Positions 1,196 through 15,378 of a stretch of DNA of 64,000 nt are shown piece by piece. The notes under the pieces were generated by a model. It searched no databases. It worked only from the letters and a program-made list of their open reading frames with translations, and was not told the origin of the DNA. The number at the start of each line of letters is the position of its first letter. Position 1 is the stretch's first letter. Origin of the DNA: Lacticaseibacillus mingshuiensis (lineage in GTDB: Bacteria; Bacillota; Bacilli; Lactobacillales; Lactobacillaceae); NCBI RefSeq assembly GCF_016861785.1, contig NZ_BOLS01000012.1:1-64000 (forward strand). Direction: 5' to 3'. Made by a program: the position numbers and the translations under genes.

Positions 1196-2626
1196 ATGAA
1201 ATTAGTTGCGATTGCCGGCTCCATTGCCGAAGAGTCTTTTAACCGCCAGCTCCTTGTATTTGCGGCCAATCAATATGCGGCCCAGGCGGACATTGAAGTG
1301 TTGAACATCAACGACGTGCCTGTTTTCAACCAGGACGAGGACACCGGCGCAAATGCCGCGGTCCTGTACCTGGCACGCAAGATCGAGCAGGCAGACGGCG
1401 TGATCTTCGCCACCCCAGAACATAACCACACCTTGGCCCCAGCCATGAAAAATATTATCGAGTGGCTGTCCAACAAGCTCCACCCCCTGGCCAACAAGCC
1501 GGTCCTGATTCTCGGCGCGTCCTGGCATGATCAAGGCTCCTCGCGCGCCCAGTTGTCCCTGCGGCAAGTGTTGGAAGCCCCAGGCGTCGGCGCCTTGGTG
1601 ATGCCTGGCGACGAATTTTTGCTGGCCAACGCCAAGGATGCGTTTGATGAGTTAGGCAACCTCAAGGACCAGCGTACCGTCGCGTTTTTGGGCACGGTGA
1701 TCACGAAGTTCGTCAAGTGGGTCCATGTGCTGGCGGCGATGCAGGAGAAAAAAGCGGCCCAACCGTGGCTGCAAGAGGATCTCACCGGCCACCATCCGGT
1801 CGATACCTCGATCGATCTCCCGCGCAGCGACGATTGGGTCGAGCAAGGCGCGGCCAAAACCGGCGCGGTCAATGGCGACAAATATGTCGAGCTCGATCGC
1901 GGGCTTTTGACGGTCGATCAGTTGAACTGGTTCCTCAACTCCATGCCGATGGAATTGACCTACATGGATGACAACGACCAATTCATCTATTACAACCACG
2001 CACTGGATCACGACGACATGTTGGCTTCGCGGTATCCAAAACAGGTCGGTGACATGGCCTCCGAGGTGCACCCGCCACGCGCCGTTGCCCATGTCCAACA
2101 GGTGATCTGGGCGCTTCGCCAACATCAGACTGACCTGGTATCCATGCCAGTGCCAGGCAACAAGGTCAATGAAAAATACATCATGCATTTTTATCGCGCC
2201 ATGCGCGACGCCGACGATCGGTATCGCGGCGTGAACGAATGGGTGCTGGACATTTGGCCGATCATCGCGGACTACCTCAAGCGGACGGGCCAAAAACTCG
2301 TGCAGGATCCAAGCCACAAAGCGGATGCGACAACGGGCGCTTCTCAAGCCGGCGCCTCTGCCAAGCCAGATGCCTCAACGGGTGCTTCCGAATCAACCAG
2401 CACGCCAGCCGCAACGCCGACGCCGGATGCGTCAACTGGCGCATCCGAGTCCAGCGCGACGCCAACCCCAACGCCGGACGCCTCAACCGGGGCTTCTGAA
2501 TCCGGCACCGACACAGCGGCCGATGCGTCGACGAGTGCTTCGAAAGCCGATGCGTCGACTGGCGCAAGTGAGTCGGTACCGACACCTGTTTTTCCAGATG
2601 CCGTGACCGGCGCGACGGAGATCTGA
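1196..2626 (+). CDS. FMN reductase with PAS-like domain and repeated flavinylation-motif tail
   Basis: This 476-residue protein has three parts. Residues 1-185 are an FMN_red flavodoxin-like domain paralogous to the preceding gene. Residues about 235-365 resemble the PAS-like (PAS_10/DUF438-type) module found in some NAD(P)H-dependent oxidoreductases. Residues 372-476 are a low-complexity tail rich in D, A, S, T, G and P. The tail carries six intact D-A-x-T-G-A-[S/T] heptads and one degenerate copy (DASTSAS); the last is DAVTGAT just before the C-terminus. D-x-x-T-G-A-[S/T] is the established site where ApbE attaches FMN to Thr. No signal peptide is seen, so the protein should be cytosolic. 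The start follows AGGAGGA, which overlaps the previous stop. Multiple covalent FMNs are inferred, not shown. Confidence 0.8.
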   Translation: MKLVAIAGSIAEESFNRQLLVFAANQYAAQADIEVLNINDVPVFNQDEDTGANAAVLYLARKIEQADGVIFATPEHNHTLAPAMKNIIEWLSNKLHPLANKPVLILGASWHDQGSSRAQLSLRQVLEAPGVGALVMPGDEFLLANAKDAFDELGNLKDQRTVAFLGTVITKFVKWVHVLAAMQEKKAAQPWLQEDLTGHHPVDTSIDLPRSDDWVEQGAAKTGAVNGDKYVELDRGLLTVDQLNWFLNSMPMELTYMDDNDQFIYYNHALDHDDMLASRYPKQVGDMASEVHPPRAVAHVQQVIWALRQHQTDLVSMPVPGNKVNEKYIMHFYRAMRDADDRYRGVNEWVLDIWPIIADYLKRTGQKLVQDPSHKADATTGASQAGASAKPDASTGASESTSTPAATPTPDASTGASESSATPTPTPDASTGASESGTDTAADASTSASKADASTGASESVPTPVFPDAVTGATEI

Positions 2627-2700: not shown

Positions 2701-3111
2701 CTAAAATTCGACAGTCGATTCCTGATTTTTCACGGTGACATCCGCCTCGCTGAAAGTCAGGGTAAAGAAGGTGCCATGTGCCGCGTATTTTGCCGTCTGT
2801 GGGAATGCGGCCATGTATTGCGCGAGTTGGGCCTCATCCGGTGTGAGGCCATTGATCTTGGCGGCGTGGACCCGCACGACATCGTTGGTCTCACCGATCG
2901 GCAGGGTGGTGAAGGCGGCGGCGTCATGTGCGGCAAATTCCGCGACCTTGTTGGCATTGCCCGCCGTCATGAACAGCAAGGTGTTCACCTCTTTCAAATA
3001 CGTGTACAAGACGATGCGGACATCTGGCGCGCTGCCATCCGTGGTCAAGCTGGCAACGGCGACCTGGCCGGATTCTGTCAAAATACGTTGTGCTTCTGTT
3101 TTTGCGTCCAT
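2701..3111 (-). CDS. Pyridoxamine 5'-phosphate oxidase-like flavin-binding protein
   Basis: This 136-residue protein resembles the PNPOx-like split-barrel flavoprotein family: an N-terminal helix (TEAQRILTESGQ), then VAVASLTTDGSAPDVRIVLY, where the protein usually contacts flavin phosphate. Members are general stress proteins or FMN/F420-dependent reductases; the substrate cannot be read here. The ATG at 3111 is chosen because GGAGG sits eight bases upstream, whereas the upstream in-frame ATGs lack a site. It is monocistronic and divergent from the GH127 gene, with cre-like palindromes in the shared spacer. Confidence 0.75.
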   Translation of the reverse strand: MDAKTEAQRILTESGQVAVASLTTDGSAPDVRIVLYTYLKEVNTLLFMTAGNANKVAEFAAHDAAAFTTLPIGETNDVVRVHAAKINGLTPDEAQLAQYMAAFPQTAKYAAHGTFFTLTFSEADVTVKNQESTVEF

Positions 3112-3156
3112 AAGAAGGACCTCCATTTCTGTGTTCCCCTTCATTGTAGCCAGGCC

Positions 3157-6290: not shown

Positions 6291-6938
6291 TTACAAAACA
6301 GAGATCTGCGAGTTCACATCGTAGCGGTCGGTCTTCAAGATGTCGGCCCCAGCGGCTGGCTTGCCGATCGCGATGGCCATTACAGGCACGAAGCGTTTCG
6401 GGTCAAGGCCCACTGCGGGAATGATCTTCTTGAAGTCGTAGCCGGACCACGCATTGGCCTCATAGCCATGTGCCCGGGCTGCCAGCAGGAGCTGCATGCC
6501 CACCATGGACCCGTCGATCGTCGCGTCCAAGGTCAAAAATTCTGGCGAGGCATTTTCATACAGCGGCAGGAAGGAGTTGAAGATCTGGTCCAATTTTTCC
6601 TTCGAGATCTTGCCGGCTTCATAGACCTTGGTCCAGACGTCGCGGTAGACCTTGTGCGATTGCGTGTCGCCGGCGATATAAATGATCGCCGAGCTGGAGT
6701 CGACTTGCGGGTAGTTGAACTTCATCGCCGCCTGCTTGAGTTTCTCCTTGGCTTCCGGCGTGTCGATGATGACAAAATGCCAGGACTGCAAGTTGCACGC
6801 GGATGGCGCGGTGGTTGCTTCTTGGATCATCGCGGTCAATTCGGCGCGGTCGATGGTCACGCTCGGGTCAAATTCGCGGACCGAATGGCGGTTGAGCATC
6901 ACGTCTGCAAAATCATTGTTCTTAAATTCTTCTGTCAA
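6291..6938 (-). CDS. Nitroreductase family protein
   Basis: This 215-residue protein belongs to the FMN-dependent nitroreductase superfamily, which reduces nitroaromatics, quinones or other acceptors with NAD(P)H in the cytosol. The FMN phosphate-binding start (NRHSVREFDPS, near residue 17) and the APSACNLQSWHFVII segment (residues 43-57) are typical, as is the late AHGYEANAWSGYD motif. Translation starts at a TTG (6938) preceded by GGGAGG at good spacing; no nearby ATG is better. It is monocistronic. The substrate is unknown. Confidence 0.88.
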   Translation of the reverse strand: MTEEFKNNDFADVMLNRHSVREFDPSVTIDRAELTAMIQEATTAPSACNLQSWHFVIIDTPEAKEKLKQAAMKFNYPQVDSSSAIIYIAGDTQSHKVYRDVWTKVYEAGKISKEKLDQIFNSFLPLYENASPEFLTLDATIDGSMVGMQLLLAARAHGYEANAWSGYDFKKIIPAVGLDPKRFVPVMAIAIGKPAAGADILKTDRYDVNSQISVL

Positions 6939-12702: not shown

Positions 12703-14464
12703 AAAACAGGCAGTGGCCGGCCTTCATCCAGGCGTGCCCTATGACCGCGACCCGCAGATCGAGGCCACCGGTCAAGTCGCAACAGGCACCGCCGCCATCG
12801 TGGCCGCCCTTCAACACGACCGCCTCAGTCGCCACGCCAAGCGCATCGTGATCGACTGTTTCCCCGGCGTGGACCAACAGGCGATCCGGCAACTCGCCGA
12901 AGCGACCTGGCCAAACGCCGACCTCGTGAGCGCCGACGACTTCGCCATTGCCCCAGCCGAATTGACCGCGCAACTCGCCCAGCAGCTCACCGATGACCGT
13001 GTCTTTGGCCGCCTCTCGCATCAAGTCTTCGCCGACTTTTTCCCGGCGACGACCCGTCAAGAAGTGAAAACATGTCTCGACGCAAGCGCGCGTCAGATTG
13101 TGGTGATTGGATGCGCCGCGAGCCTCTTTGTCGACCAGCCGGACCTGCTCCTCTACGCCGACATCACCCGCTGGCAGCTCCAACTGCGCCTGCGCGCCGG
13201 CCAACCGAATTGGCACGCGACCAACGGCGACGAAGACATGTTGCGCAAATATAAGCGCGGTTATTTCTTCGAATGGCGCCTTGGCGACCGCCAGCGCAAC
13301 GCCGACATGCCGCACCTAAACTGGTACCTCGACACCACCGCGCGCGACGCCCCGCGCCTCGCCTCGGCCGTGACCCTGAACGCCTGCCTGGACAGCGCCG
13401 CGCACCGCCCATTTCGCCTTGTGCCCTATTTTGACCAAAGCGTCTGGGGCGGCCAGTGGATGAAACAGCAATTTGCCCTTGATCCAAGCGTCCCCAATTA
13501 CGGCTGGGCGTTTGACGGCGTGCCCGAGGAAAATAGTCTGAAGTTCGCCCTCACCGGCGGCTTTCTTCGCGTGCCGGCCATCGCCCTGGTGCACCAACGA
13601 CCGATGCAACTGTTAGGGGCGCTGGTCCAAGCGCGTTTTGGCAACGAGTTCCCGATTCGCTTCGATTATCTGGACACCATGGGCGGCGGCAACCTCAGCC
13701 TCCAGGTCCACCCGCGCATCGATTACATCCAAGACAAGTTTGGCATGACGTACACCCAAAGCGAGAGCTACTACATTCTCGAAGCAGGGGAAGGCGCCAG
13801 CGTCTATCTCGGCGTGAAAAATGGTTGCGAAAAGGAGCCACTTTTTGCGGCGCTCCATGCCGCCCAGGAAACCGAGCAGCCTTTTGATGACGCAAAATTC
13901 ATCAACCGCGTGCCGGCCCACCGCGGGGATCATTTTTCCATTCCGGCGGGGACGATCCACAGCGGCGGGGCCAATACCGTGATTCTCGAGATCTCCCAGA
14001 CGCCGTATATTTTCACCTTCAAGCTCTGGGACTGGGGCCGCATCGGCTTGGACGGCCGGCCGCGGCCCGTTCATCTGGCGCATGGCGAGGCCAATGCGAA
14101 CATGGCCTTTGATGCCGATTTTGCCCGCCGCGAGCTGATCGATCCGATCGAACCTGTCGAAAGCGGGGATGGGCACATAGAGGAACACACCGGCCTGCAA
14201 GCCCTTGAGTTCATCGAGACGCGGCGCCATCACGTGGCCGCCAAGCCGATCACGATCGACGCCCACCACGGGGTGAACATGCTGAATCTCGTTTTGGGCA
14301 CCGCCATTCGCATCGAGTCCCTGACGAATGAGTTTCCCGCCCAAACCTACCATTTCGGCGAGACCTTCATCGTTCCGGCCACGATCGGCGCGTACCGCGT
14401 GATCAATCTGACGCCAACGGAACCGGTCCTCTTGATGCAGGCCTTTGTGAGGGAACAACGATGA
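12695..14464 (+). CDS. Class I mannose-6-phosphate isomerase with large N-terminal domain
   Basis: At 589 residues this is nearly twice the usual 310-400. The C-terminal 350 residues are a class I cupin isomerase that interconverts mannose 6-phosphate and fructose 6-phosphate. They include RLVPYFDQSVWGGQWM (about 246-261), the metal-binding SLQVHP (about 338-343) and PAGTIHSGG (about 421-429). Residues 1-235 match nothing I recognise; they contain beta-alpha segments (IVIDCFPGV, IVVIGCAASLF) that recall a nucleotide-kinase fold, but no P-loop. The gene overlaps the ROK gene by 8 bp and ApbE by 4 bp, so all three are translationally coupled. The role of the extra domain is open. Confidence 0.82.
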   Translation: MTEKQAVAGLHPGVPYDRDPQIEATGQVATGTAAIVAALQHDRLSRHAKRIVIDCFPGVDQQAIRQLAEATWPNADLVSADDFAIAPAELTAQLAQQLTDDRVFGRLSHQVFADFFPATTRQEVKTCLDASARQIVVIGCAASLFVDQPDLLLYADITRWQLQLRLRAGQPNWHATNGDEDMLRKYKRGYFFEWRLGDRQRNADMPHLNWYLDTTARDAPRLASAVTLNACLDSAAHRPFRLVPYFDQSVWGGQWMKQQFALDPSVPNYGWAFDGVPEENSLKFALTGGFLRVPAIALVHQRPMQLLGALVQARFGNEFPIRFDYLDTMGGGNLSLQVHPRIDYIQDKFGMTYTQSESYYILEAGEGASVYLGVKNGCEKEPLFAALHAAQETEQPFDDAKFINRVPAHRGDHFSIPAGTIHSGGANTVILEISQTPYIFTFKLWDWGRIGLDGRPRPVHLAHGEANANMAFDADFARRELIDPIEPVESGDGHIEEHTGLQALEFIETRRHHVAAKPITIDAHHGVNMLNLVLGTAIRIESLTNEFPAQTYHFGETFIVPATIGAYRVINLTPTEPVLLMQAFVREQR

Positions 14465-15378
14465 CAAAACGCACACGGACATTACACGCCTTGGGCACCC
14501 GCATCAACCTGACCGTTTTCGGCGAGCAAGACGATGCGGCGCTTGAGGCAGCCGCCGTCTTGATTCAAAAAGAAGAGGACCGGCTCACCGTTAATCGACC
14601 GCAATCTGAAGTGATGGCGGTCAATCATGCGGCGGGGGAAAAGGCTGTCGCCGTTTCCAGCGCGACCTATGACCTGATCGATCAAGCCGTGGCCGCCAGT
14701 CGGGAAAATTTTGGCTTCAACGCCTTGATCGGGCCGCTGGTCAAACGCTGGCAGATCGGCTTTGCAGGCGCGCATGTGCCGGCGCCCGATGAGATCGCTG
14801 AAGGCCTGGCACTGAGCCACCCGGATGGCGTCCAGCTGGATGGGGCCGCGCAGACCGTGCGCCTGAACACCGCCGGCATGGAGCTGGATCTGGGCGGCAT
14901 CGCCAAGGGCTTCATCGCCGATCAGATCAAGGTGCTCTGGCAGGCATATGGCGTAAGCGCAGGCATCATCGACCTGGGCGGGAATCTTTTGACAGTCGGA
15001 CGGTCGCCACGCCGCGAAGATGGCCAGTGGGTGATCGGCGTGCAGGATCCCGGCCGCGCGCGCAGTGTCGACCTGGGCACAACGATTTTGCCGGCCTGCT
15101 CCGCCGTGACATCGGGCATTTATGAGCGCTTCTTGGTCAAAAATGGCGTGAAGTATCACCACCTGCTGGATCCGCGCACCGGCTGGCCGCTTCAGACCGA
15201 CTTAGCCGGCGTCACGGTCTTCACGGCGACCTCCATTCAAGGGGAGCTGGAAGCCAAGCGCCTGTTTTTCGCCGGCCACGCCCCGGCGGACTGGCTCGCC
15301 GACCCGACGCATCTCGGGGCGGTCTTCGCCTATCAAGATGGCCGCAGTGAGGCGCTGGGATTGACGCTGGCCCGGTAG
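14461..15378 (+). CDS. apbE: FAD:protein FMN transferase, leaderless (cytosolic)
   Basis: This 305-residue ApbE-family enzyme transfers FMN from FAD to Thr in D-x-x-T-G-A-[S/T] targets. Family motifs are clear: LGTRINLTVFG at the start, FGFNALIGPLVKRW, ELDLGGIAKGFIAD (about 141-154), IIDLGGNLLTVG (about 167-178) and HHLLDPRTGWPLQTD (about 230-244). It starts MTKRTRTLHALG with no signal peptide or lipobox, unlike exported ApbE, so it should modify cytosolic proteins. The start overlaps the preceding stop (ATGA). The only strong target sequences seen in the window are in the tail of the FMN reductase at 1196-2626. Why it sits in a mannose operon is unclear. Confidence 0.9.
   Translation: MTKRTRTLHALGTRINLTVFGEQDDAALEAAAVLIQKEEDRLTVNRPQSEVMAVNHAAGEKAVAVSSATYDLIDQAVAASRENFGFNALIGPLVKRWQIGFAGAHVPAPDEIAEGLALSHPDGVQLDGAAQTVRLNTAGMELDLGGIAKGFIADQIKVLWQAYGVSAGIIDLGGNLLTVGRSPRREDGQWVIGVQDPGRARSVDLGTTILPACSAVTSGIYERFLVKNGVKYHHLLDPRTGWPLQTDLAGVTVFTATSIQGELEAKRLFFAGHAPADWLADPTHLGAVFAYQDGRSEALGLTLAR

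Follow-up and report, generated by a model that had tools for sequence, protein, structure and literature searches.

A PAS-fused FMN_red protein of Lacticaseibacillus mingshuiensis with a tail of repeated putative ApbE flavinylation motifs

Introduction

What is the role of a putative cytosolic flavin reductase whose carboxyl terminus repeats a motif of the kind that the flavin transferase ApbE loads with covalent FMN? The question is raised by a gene pair of Lacticaseibacillus mingshuiensis found in the window, i.e. the whole stretch of 64,000 nucleotides analysed here, which corresponds to contig C12 (NZ_BOLS01000012.1) of a 2.76 Mb genome. The first-pass annotation of this DNA proposed that the reductase tail is flavinylated in the cytosol by a leaderless ApbE encoded in the same window, and that a reductase with such a chain of FMNs, like a flavin wire, would be unusual.

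Organization of the gene pair

The first gene of the pair (571–1185, + strand) codes for a tail-less, FRedA/FRedB-like FMN_red protein of 204 residues (PF03358, E=5.5e-32). The second gene (1196–2626, + strand) starts 10 bp past the stop codon of the first and codes for a protein of 476 residues composed of an FMN_red domain, a PAS domain and a tail. Its FMN_red domain (residues 1–147, 1196–1636; PF03358, E=3.8e-35), which makes the two proteins adjacent paralogues, has a ChrR/FerB-like fold (Foldseek matches 3svl and 3u7r). The PAS_10 domain (residues 243–353, 1922–2254; PF13596, E=2.4e-24) matches 2qkp (32–34% identity in Foldseek, phmmer E=2.9e-19); in the Foldseek search the predicted folds resemble ChrR/FerB and the C-terminal domain of SMU_1151c. 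Pfam finds no domain in the tail, and PF04205 (FMN_bind) is absent both from the protein (Pfam) and from its genome locus. A signal peptide is not apparent, the FMN_red domain starting at residue 1 in the Pfam placement. The AlphaFold2 model (68 sequences) is mostly confident for the FMN_red and PAS domains, with a pTM of 0.50 that leaves their relative placement unsure; the pLDDT of the tail is mostly below 50, and the tail is predicted to be disordered.

A near palindromic, terminator-like hairpin of 13 pairs is found 3' of the pair (2640–2671). It is listed on the - strand by a hairpin search that gave 6 such sites in the scanned region for 3.4 expected. Because of the 10-bp gap and of this hairpin directly downstream, the two genes look like a two-gene operon, with the apbE gene of the window in a separate unit. 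Two further candidate flavoproteins are encoded close by on the - strand, a PNPOx-like protein (2701–3144) and a nitroreductase (6291–6938). The contig end (1–368) carries three imperfect direct repeats with a spacing of 126 bp, whose copies 1 and 2 are 99% alike over 102 nt.

The heptads of the tail

The tail carries six canonical D-x-x-T-G-A-[S/T] heptads, all found by motif search on the + strand: DATTGAS from residue 377 (2324–2344), DASTGAS from residues 392 (2369–2389), 411 (2426–2446), 428 (2477–2497) and 452 (2549–2569), and DAVTGAT from residue 468 (2597–2617). The latter is the sole copy ending in Thr, the final residue being Ser in the five others. A degenerate, SAS-type copy, DASTSAS (residues 443–449, 2522–2542), is seen in the sequence between the fourth and the fifth heptads. 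In 200,000 shuffles of the 103-residue tail one canonical heptad occurred in 3,949 and two in 29, while three or more occurred in none, which rules out chance in a low-complexity tail as their origin. The six intact copies and the degenerate one announced by the first-pass annotation are thus present far above chance, and the heptad positions agree with the tail boundaries 2324–2626. Its assignment of the motif to the ApbE type holds with the correction that modification falls on the final S/T and that position 4 can be S or T (PMC12052999). In the same report ApbE prefers Thr as acceptor residue, which counts against the copies ending in Ser, and terminal tags of 7 residues are enough for flavinylation (PMC12052999). 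Judged by its motifs, the tail looks like an ApbE target that would be flavinylated.

Conservation of the tail in related proteins

A profile scan of genome contigs with an alignment of 24 sequences gave 407 relatives, among them a 99% identical one from Lacticaseibacillus yichunensis. The best 80 of the 407, a set that leans to close kin, were analysed. All 80 fused proteins carry 2–7 heptads that fit D-x-x-x-[G/S/A/N]-A-[S/T] (2 in 11 proteins, 3 in 36, 4 in 25, 5 in 5, 6 in 2 and 7 in 1). Canonical heptads vary from 0 to 6 per protein in these 80, with zero in 14; the six copies of the L. yichunensis orthologue are the maximum of a set from which the window contig is absent. The heptad pattern demanded D, A at position 6 and S/T at position 7 and confined position 5 to G, S, A or N, and within this limit position 5 is G in 204 of the 274 heptads, S in 65, A in 4 and N in 1. 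At position 4, 226 of the 274 have S or T. The partner FMN_red gene is directly upstream in 79 of the best 80 of the 407 relatives, the exception beginning at a contig end.

Codon changes were counted in 26 close pairs, hand-chosen, overlapping and not independent, the motif codons being pooled over all copies and not followed copy by copy. The motif positions (D and 4–7) show 217 synonymous, 3 nonsynonymous and 32 indel changes, against 523 synonymous, 300 nonsynonymous and 127 indel changes plus 28 insertions at the other tail positions. Between the window and L. yichunensis the synonymous/nonsynonymous counts are 13/0 at motif positions and 14/4 in the rest of the tail. On these sequence comparisons, the motif codons are under purifying selection and the linkers drift.

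Scardovia wiggsiae (Bifidobacteriaceae; locus L131), which lies outside Bacillota, has the cassette with a SAS-type tail and apbE, perhaps acquired by horizontal transfer. Genome G113 (L240) has a partial ORF of at least 119 residues, which directly precedes apbE in the same orientation and whose carboxyl terminus DATTGASMF makes it a possible further C-terminally flavinylated protein. In sister species (L024, L025, L011 and L013) long open frames of 808–837 residues begin with FMN_red followed by a flavoprotein reductase-like part, which we take to be HcrB-like; in genome G011, apbE is ~2 kb from a long FMN_red-led frame.

Genomic linkage to apbE

The first-pass annotation named as a check a search for repeated FMN_red tails and their co-occurrence with apbE. 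Repeated tails are found in all of the best 80 of the 407 relatives, and apbE lies within ~5 kb in 34 of them (33 upstream on the same strand, 1 otherwise), which is a lower bound, as some of the stretches, including some of the 46 without apbE, end at contig ends. Among 121 Lactobacillaceae genomes a full-length ApbE is encoded by 41 of the 41 with a PAS_10 motif tail and by 18 of the 80 without (Fisher 1.9e-18, ignoring phylogeny). Note that the 41 tail genomes were hand-picked, that the comparison covers PAS_10 proteins only, and that one of the 41, G091, has a completeness of 65% and codes for one ApbE, counted irrespective of a leader.

Cassettes of the order apbE, FMN_red, FMN_red-PAS-tail are carried by plasmids of L. 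paracasei, Loigolactobacillus coryniformis, E. faecium and Lactococcus lactis (four records), with transposase genes nearby in the first three. The plasmid tails of L. paracasei and Loigolactobacillus have one GAS and one SAS heptad each, that of E. faecium three SAS and that of L. lactis two GAS. An L. fermentum plasmid carries the gene pair with no apbE within the stretch viewed, flavocytochrome c and fumarase being encoded nearby. The L. lactis plasmid (L239) has a Crp/Fnr-family regulator gene upstream of the cassette, which may place it under oxygen or redox control.

The ApbE proteins of L. mingshuiensis

The window ApbE (14461–15378, + strand) is a leaderless protein of 305 residues that matches PF02424 from residue 11 (E=6.5e-64, 216.4 bits, profile positions 1–264 of 266). 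It is one of three ApbEs in the genome, the others being that of contig C3, with a lipobox-like leader, and the leaderless one of contig C8; leaders were judged by eye. The first-pass annotation held that a leaderless ApbE and a leaderless reductase should meet in the cytosol. Neither of the two shows a sign of export, but the genome codes for two further ApbEs, one of which is leaderless too. The C3 ApbE adjoins a lipoprotein-like ORF with two FMN_bind domains, the sole FMN_bind matches in the genome; the FMN_bind search thus gave no substrate of this type for the leaderless ApbEs genome-wide.

The pairing of the tail with the ApbE encoded at 14461, also proposed by the first-pass annotation, is supported by the gene context of its relatives. 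The window ApbE groups with an ApbE of genome G013 (contig C29) and with that of the L. paracasei plasmid (support 100/97), being 62% identical to the latter, which heads the plasmid cassette. The same-group apbE of G013 is flanked on both sides by genes of standalone PAS proteins, one with 5 motifs and the other with 3. In G007, G011 and G017 an ApbE of the window type is encoded beside PAS genes, whose products in G007 and G017 carry 6 motifs apiece. The window genome lacks a PAS-tail gene standing alone: a second PAS_10 match falls in a frame of 526 residues without tail motifs. The window apbE itself lies 12 kb from the reductase gene, outside its operon. On this sequence evidence, the window ApbE is the probable flavin transferase for the tail.

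The window ApbE keeps the VTSG and YHH..DP.TG motifs. Its alignment to TpFtp replaces D282 by Q, D284 by E and T288 by K. We take T288 to be a Mg2+ ligand in TpFtp, and D282 and D284 presumably bind metal likewise. The Lys at the T288 position is conserved in the genus and in the apbE genes adjoining tail genes; the corresponding ApbE stretch of three Lactiplantibacillus-like genomes retains Thr. Decay of the window ApbE was considered and rejected: its unusual QGELEAKRLFF stretch is common to orthologues encoded beside tail genes and represents a conserved, putatively active variant.

The C8 ApbE (L232, C8:63755–64588) is of a second leaderless type with VTTG, a DVLSS stretch and, here, AGN in place of GGN. 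This type is also present in same-genus genomes with no FMN_red-PAS match (G016 and G019). It could be the real partner of the tail.

The shifted motif

Glycine at position 5 is not kept throughout the family. Among the best 80 of the 407 tails, G-type heptads alone occur in 43, both kinds in 25, and non-G heptads alone, mostly SAS, in 12. The finding named in the first-pass annotation as contrary to flavinylation, homologues that lack the T-G-A core, is therefore seen in part of the set. Of the 12 SAS-only loci, 8 have an apbE close by. In a tree of the 34 ApbEs encoded near tail genes, a deep split separates two sets (support 100/100, with a long-branch warning). One set of 12 holds all 8 SAS-only systems with apbE, its other rows being 2 mixed and 2 GAS, whereas the 22 remaining ApbEs include no SAS-only system (Fisher 2.7e-5, ignoring phylogeny). 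In a tree of 54 ApbEs, drawn from a partly overlapping set, 7 of 7 SAS-tail systems (6 genomes and 1 plasmid) have a member in the corresponding clade of 15. One of these genomes, G136, codes for a further ApbE outside the clade, and the clade is not exclusive, as it includes systems with GAS tails in L. lactis, G079, Vagococcus and Atopostipes.

Two Limosilactobacillus SAS pairs have 23 synonymous, 0 nonsynonymous and 5 indel positions in the motifs, and 66 synonymous, 46 nonsynonymous and 23 indel positions plus 5 insertions elsewhere in the tail. These motif codons and the apbE genes near 8 of the 12 loci speak against plain site loss in SAS tails, a reading that was dropped. Since the nearby apbEs of SAS-only loci belong to one ApbE clade and the Limosilactobacillus SAS heptads are conserved, the sequences suggest that SAS heptads are perhaps a motif shift and not a refutation of flavinylation. 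Compared with a new code, tolerance of SAS by ApbE would be the simpler explanation, because a Gly-to-Ala mutant retains ~50% flavinylation (PMC12052999).

Homology to the FRedA/FRedB-LjPAS system

In L. johnsonii, FRedA and FRedB form a heterodimeric NADH oxidase that generates H2O2 from NADH (Valladares et al. 2015, PMC4500961). The complex has a KD for FMN of 1.96 uM, is under-loaded when purified and, though its subunits lack a tail, is active in vitro when free FMN is supplied (PMC4500961); a tail is thus dispensable for NADH oxidation as such. LjPAS is a PAS_10 protein that slows FRedA/B assembly in vitro and whose gene is repressed >3-fold without oxygen; other lactobacilli have PAS and an FMN reductase joined in one protein (PMC4500961). 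The protein was assayed after expression in E. coli (PMC4500961), in a form that probably lacked covalent flavins. By sequence, the operon 571–2626 matches this system: in both, two FMN_red paralogues lie side by side and a PAS_10 protein is present. The operon differs in that the PAS domain is fused to FMN_red and in its longer tail.

The LjPAS tail was read from genome G065 through primer matches and not from the sequence of strain N6.2. The primers LjPAS-F, FRedA-F, FRedB-F, FRedB-R and both LjPAS qPCR primers of PMC4500961 match G065 with 0 mismatches, LjPAS-R with 1 and FRedA-R with 3. The carboxyl terminus of the G065 homologue carries DATTGAT, DTATGAS and DTSSGAS-EY, and the printed LjPAS reverse primer (PMC4500961) encodes SGASEY-stop. 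The fred pair of G065, two more genes and apbE lie on one strand, LjPAS being located elsewhere. This LjPAS homologue (L083), identified by the primers, shares 42% identity with the window protein over the aligned part. The terms "covalent", "flavinylat" and "ApbE" are all absent from the main text of PMC4500961, and no link between FRedA/FRedB-LjPAS and flavinylation was found in open-licence PMC papers.

Function of the tail

The reading that accounts best for the locus, and that is judged reasonably probable, is that the region 571–2626 codes for a cytosolic FRed-type reductase with an ApbE-loaded tail of tethered, swinging FMNs. The products of the gene pair would associate in the cytosol as a heterodimer, an NAD(P)H:FMN reductase like FRedA/FRedB, with PAS fused to one subunit. 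The leaderless ApbE would load the disordered carboxyl terminus with up to six FMNs, which would swing into the reductase's own flavin pockets, accept electrons from NAD(P)H and pass them on. Because FRedA/B has a micromolar KD for FMN and is purified under-loaded, tethered flavins may keep the pockets supplied, several sites providing a high local flavin supply beside the pocket. The acceptor would most likely be O2, giving superoxide/H2O2, or else another cytosolic redox partner. O2 is suggested by analogy, since FRedA/B makes H2O2 and the multi-flavinylated protein SaFMN3 is re-oxidised by O2 (PMC10339131).

A role as captive cofactor or in flavin retention alone, in which a single tail FMN occupies the pocket while the additional copies are redundant and serve to raise occupancy, is somewhat unlikely. 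It would fit the variable copy number, the heterodimer KD of ~2 uM for FMN (PMC4500961) and the models of Huang et al. (2024), where tail sites are near the flavin pocket (PMC11334425). However, only 3 nonsynonymous changes for 217 synonymous in the pooled motif codons would not be expected if most copies were neutral, and 2–7 heptads are kept though there is one pocket per FMN_red domain. The slowing of FRedA/B assembly by LjPAS and the repression of its gene without oxygen (PMC4500961), together with the existence of standalone PAS-tail proteins, encoded beside apbE in several genomes, would agree with a sensor centred on the PAS domain, where tail flavins report the redox or O2 state and PAS gates heterodimer formation. 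This is unlikely: the LjPAS data come from protein expressed in E. coli, ApbE being unmentioned in the main text, so that they do not describe the modified form (PMC4500961), and the present data point to no PAS ligand.

The flavin wire of the first-pass annotation, conducting electrons along the tail FMNs away from the reductase as in a multihaem cytochrome, is a weaker mechanism and very unlikely. There are several sites in series, and such a wire has been put forward for multi-flavinylated proteins outside the cytosol (PMC8238504), but the tail is predicted to be disordered and neighbouring canonical modified residues are 15–24 residues apart. The random-coil estimate of ~27–36 A for this spacing (~9 residues fewer if the degenerate copy is used) exceeds single-step tunnelling unless the flavins collide; moreover, species differ in their number of heptads (2 to 7) and the cytosol has no barrier to cross. 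Least probable is a tail left unflavinylated in this species, its motifs being relics beside an ApbE inactivated by metal-ligand substitution: K at the T288 position, Q at D282 and one degenerate heptad in seven would fit, but motif positions show 13 synonymous and 0 nonsynonymous changes against the sister species, and the K-variant apbE adjoins motif tails in other species and on plasmids.

The swinging-FMN reading can be extended, tentatively and with less than even confidence, to the proposal that flavin-derived H2O2 of Lactobacillales comes largely from a cytosolic multi-site covalent-flavin NADH oxidase, composed of a FRed heterodimer, a PAS-borne tail and a leaderless ApbE, and that one branch moved to a D-x-x-x-S-A-S code read by a co-inherited ApbE clade. 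The locus joins two literatures that are separate in the open-licence papers searched, on the flavinylation of FMN_red proteins by ApbE and on H2O2 production by FRedA/FRedB-LjPAS in probiotic lactobacilli, and LjPAS would be a flavin carrier beyond its role as modulator. The relatives, a natural series of disordered tails with 2–7 heptads, and the apparent natural motif change that tracks an ApbE clade could both serve mechanism studies and flavin-tagging.

Comparison with known systems

The class that the first-pass annotation called unusual is not new, as FMN_red proteins of Lactococcus flavinylated by ApbE at 1–2 tail sites were published in 2024 (Huang et al., PMC11334425). They share with the window protein the FMN_red domain, an unstructured C-terminal extension with the motif, linkage to apbE (here seen in relatives) and an origin in Firmicutes. 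The window protein differs in its six motifs plus one degenerate copy for their one to two, in the PAS domain placed between FMN_red and tail, and in an apbE that is not adjacent. The word PAS is absent from the main text of PMC11334425, although the L. lactis plasmid homologue WP_011915228.1 has PAS and two motifs.

Several covalent FMN sites per chain, here predicted, are also found in multi-flavinylated proteins (Meheust et al. 2021, PMC8238504; Tong et al. 2023, PMC10339131). Those are described as extracytosolic or secreted and use FMN_bind domains, whereas the window protein has bare heptads in a disordered tail and no apparent signal peptide. The cytoplasmic ApbE of Klebsiella pneumoniae and its soluble fumarate reductase (PMC12052999) resemble the present system in having an ApbE without signal and a soluble substrate. 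The target enzyme is different. The fumarate reductase of K. pneumoniae carries a single site and an FMN_bind domain.

The flavinylation of FMN_red tails (PMC11334425) and PAS-FMN_red fusions (PMC4500961) are thus already in print. As far as the searches go, the following features are new: tails with several sites, up to six canonical heptads; their occurrence on proteins that are PAS-fused or have PAS alone; a motif tail in the homologue of LjPAS, with an apbE in the vicinity of fredAB; and the association of SAS heptads with an ApbE clade.
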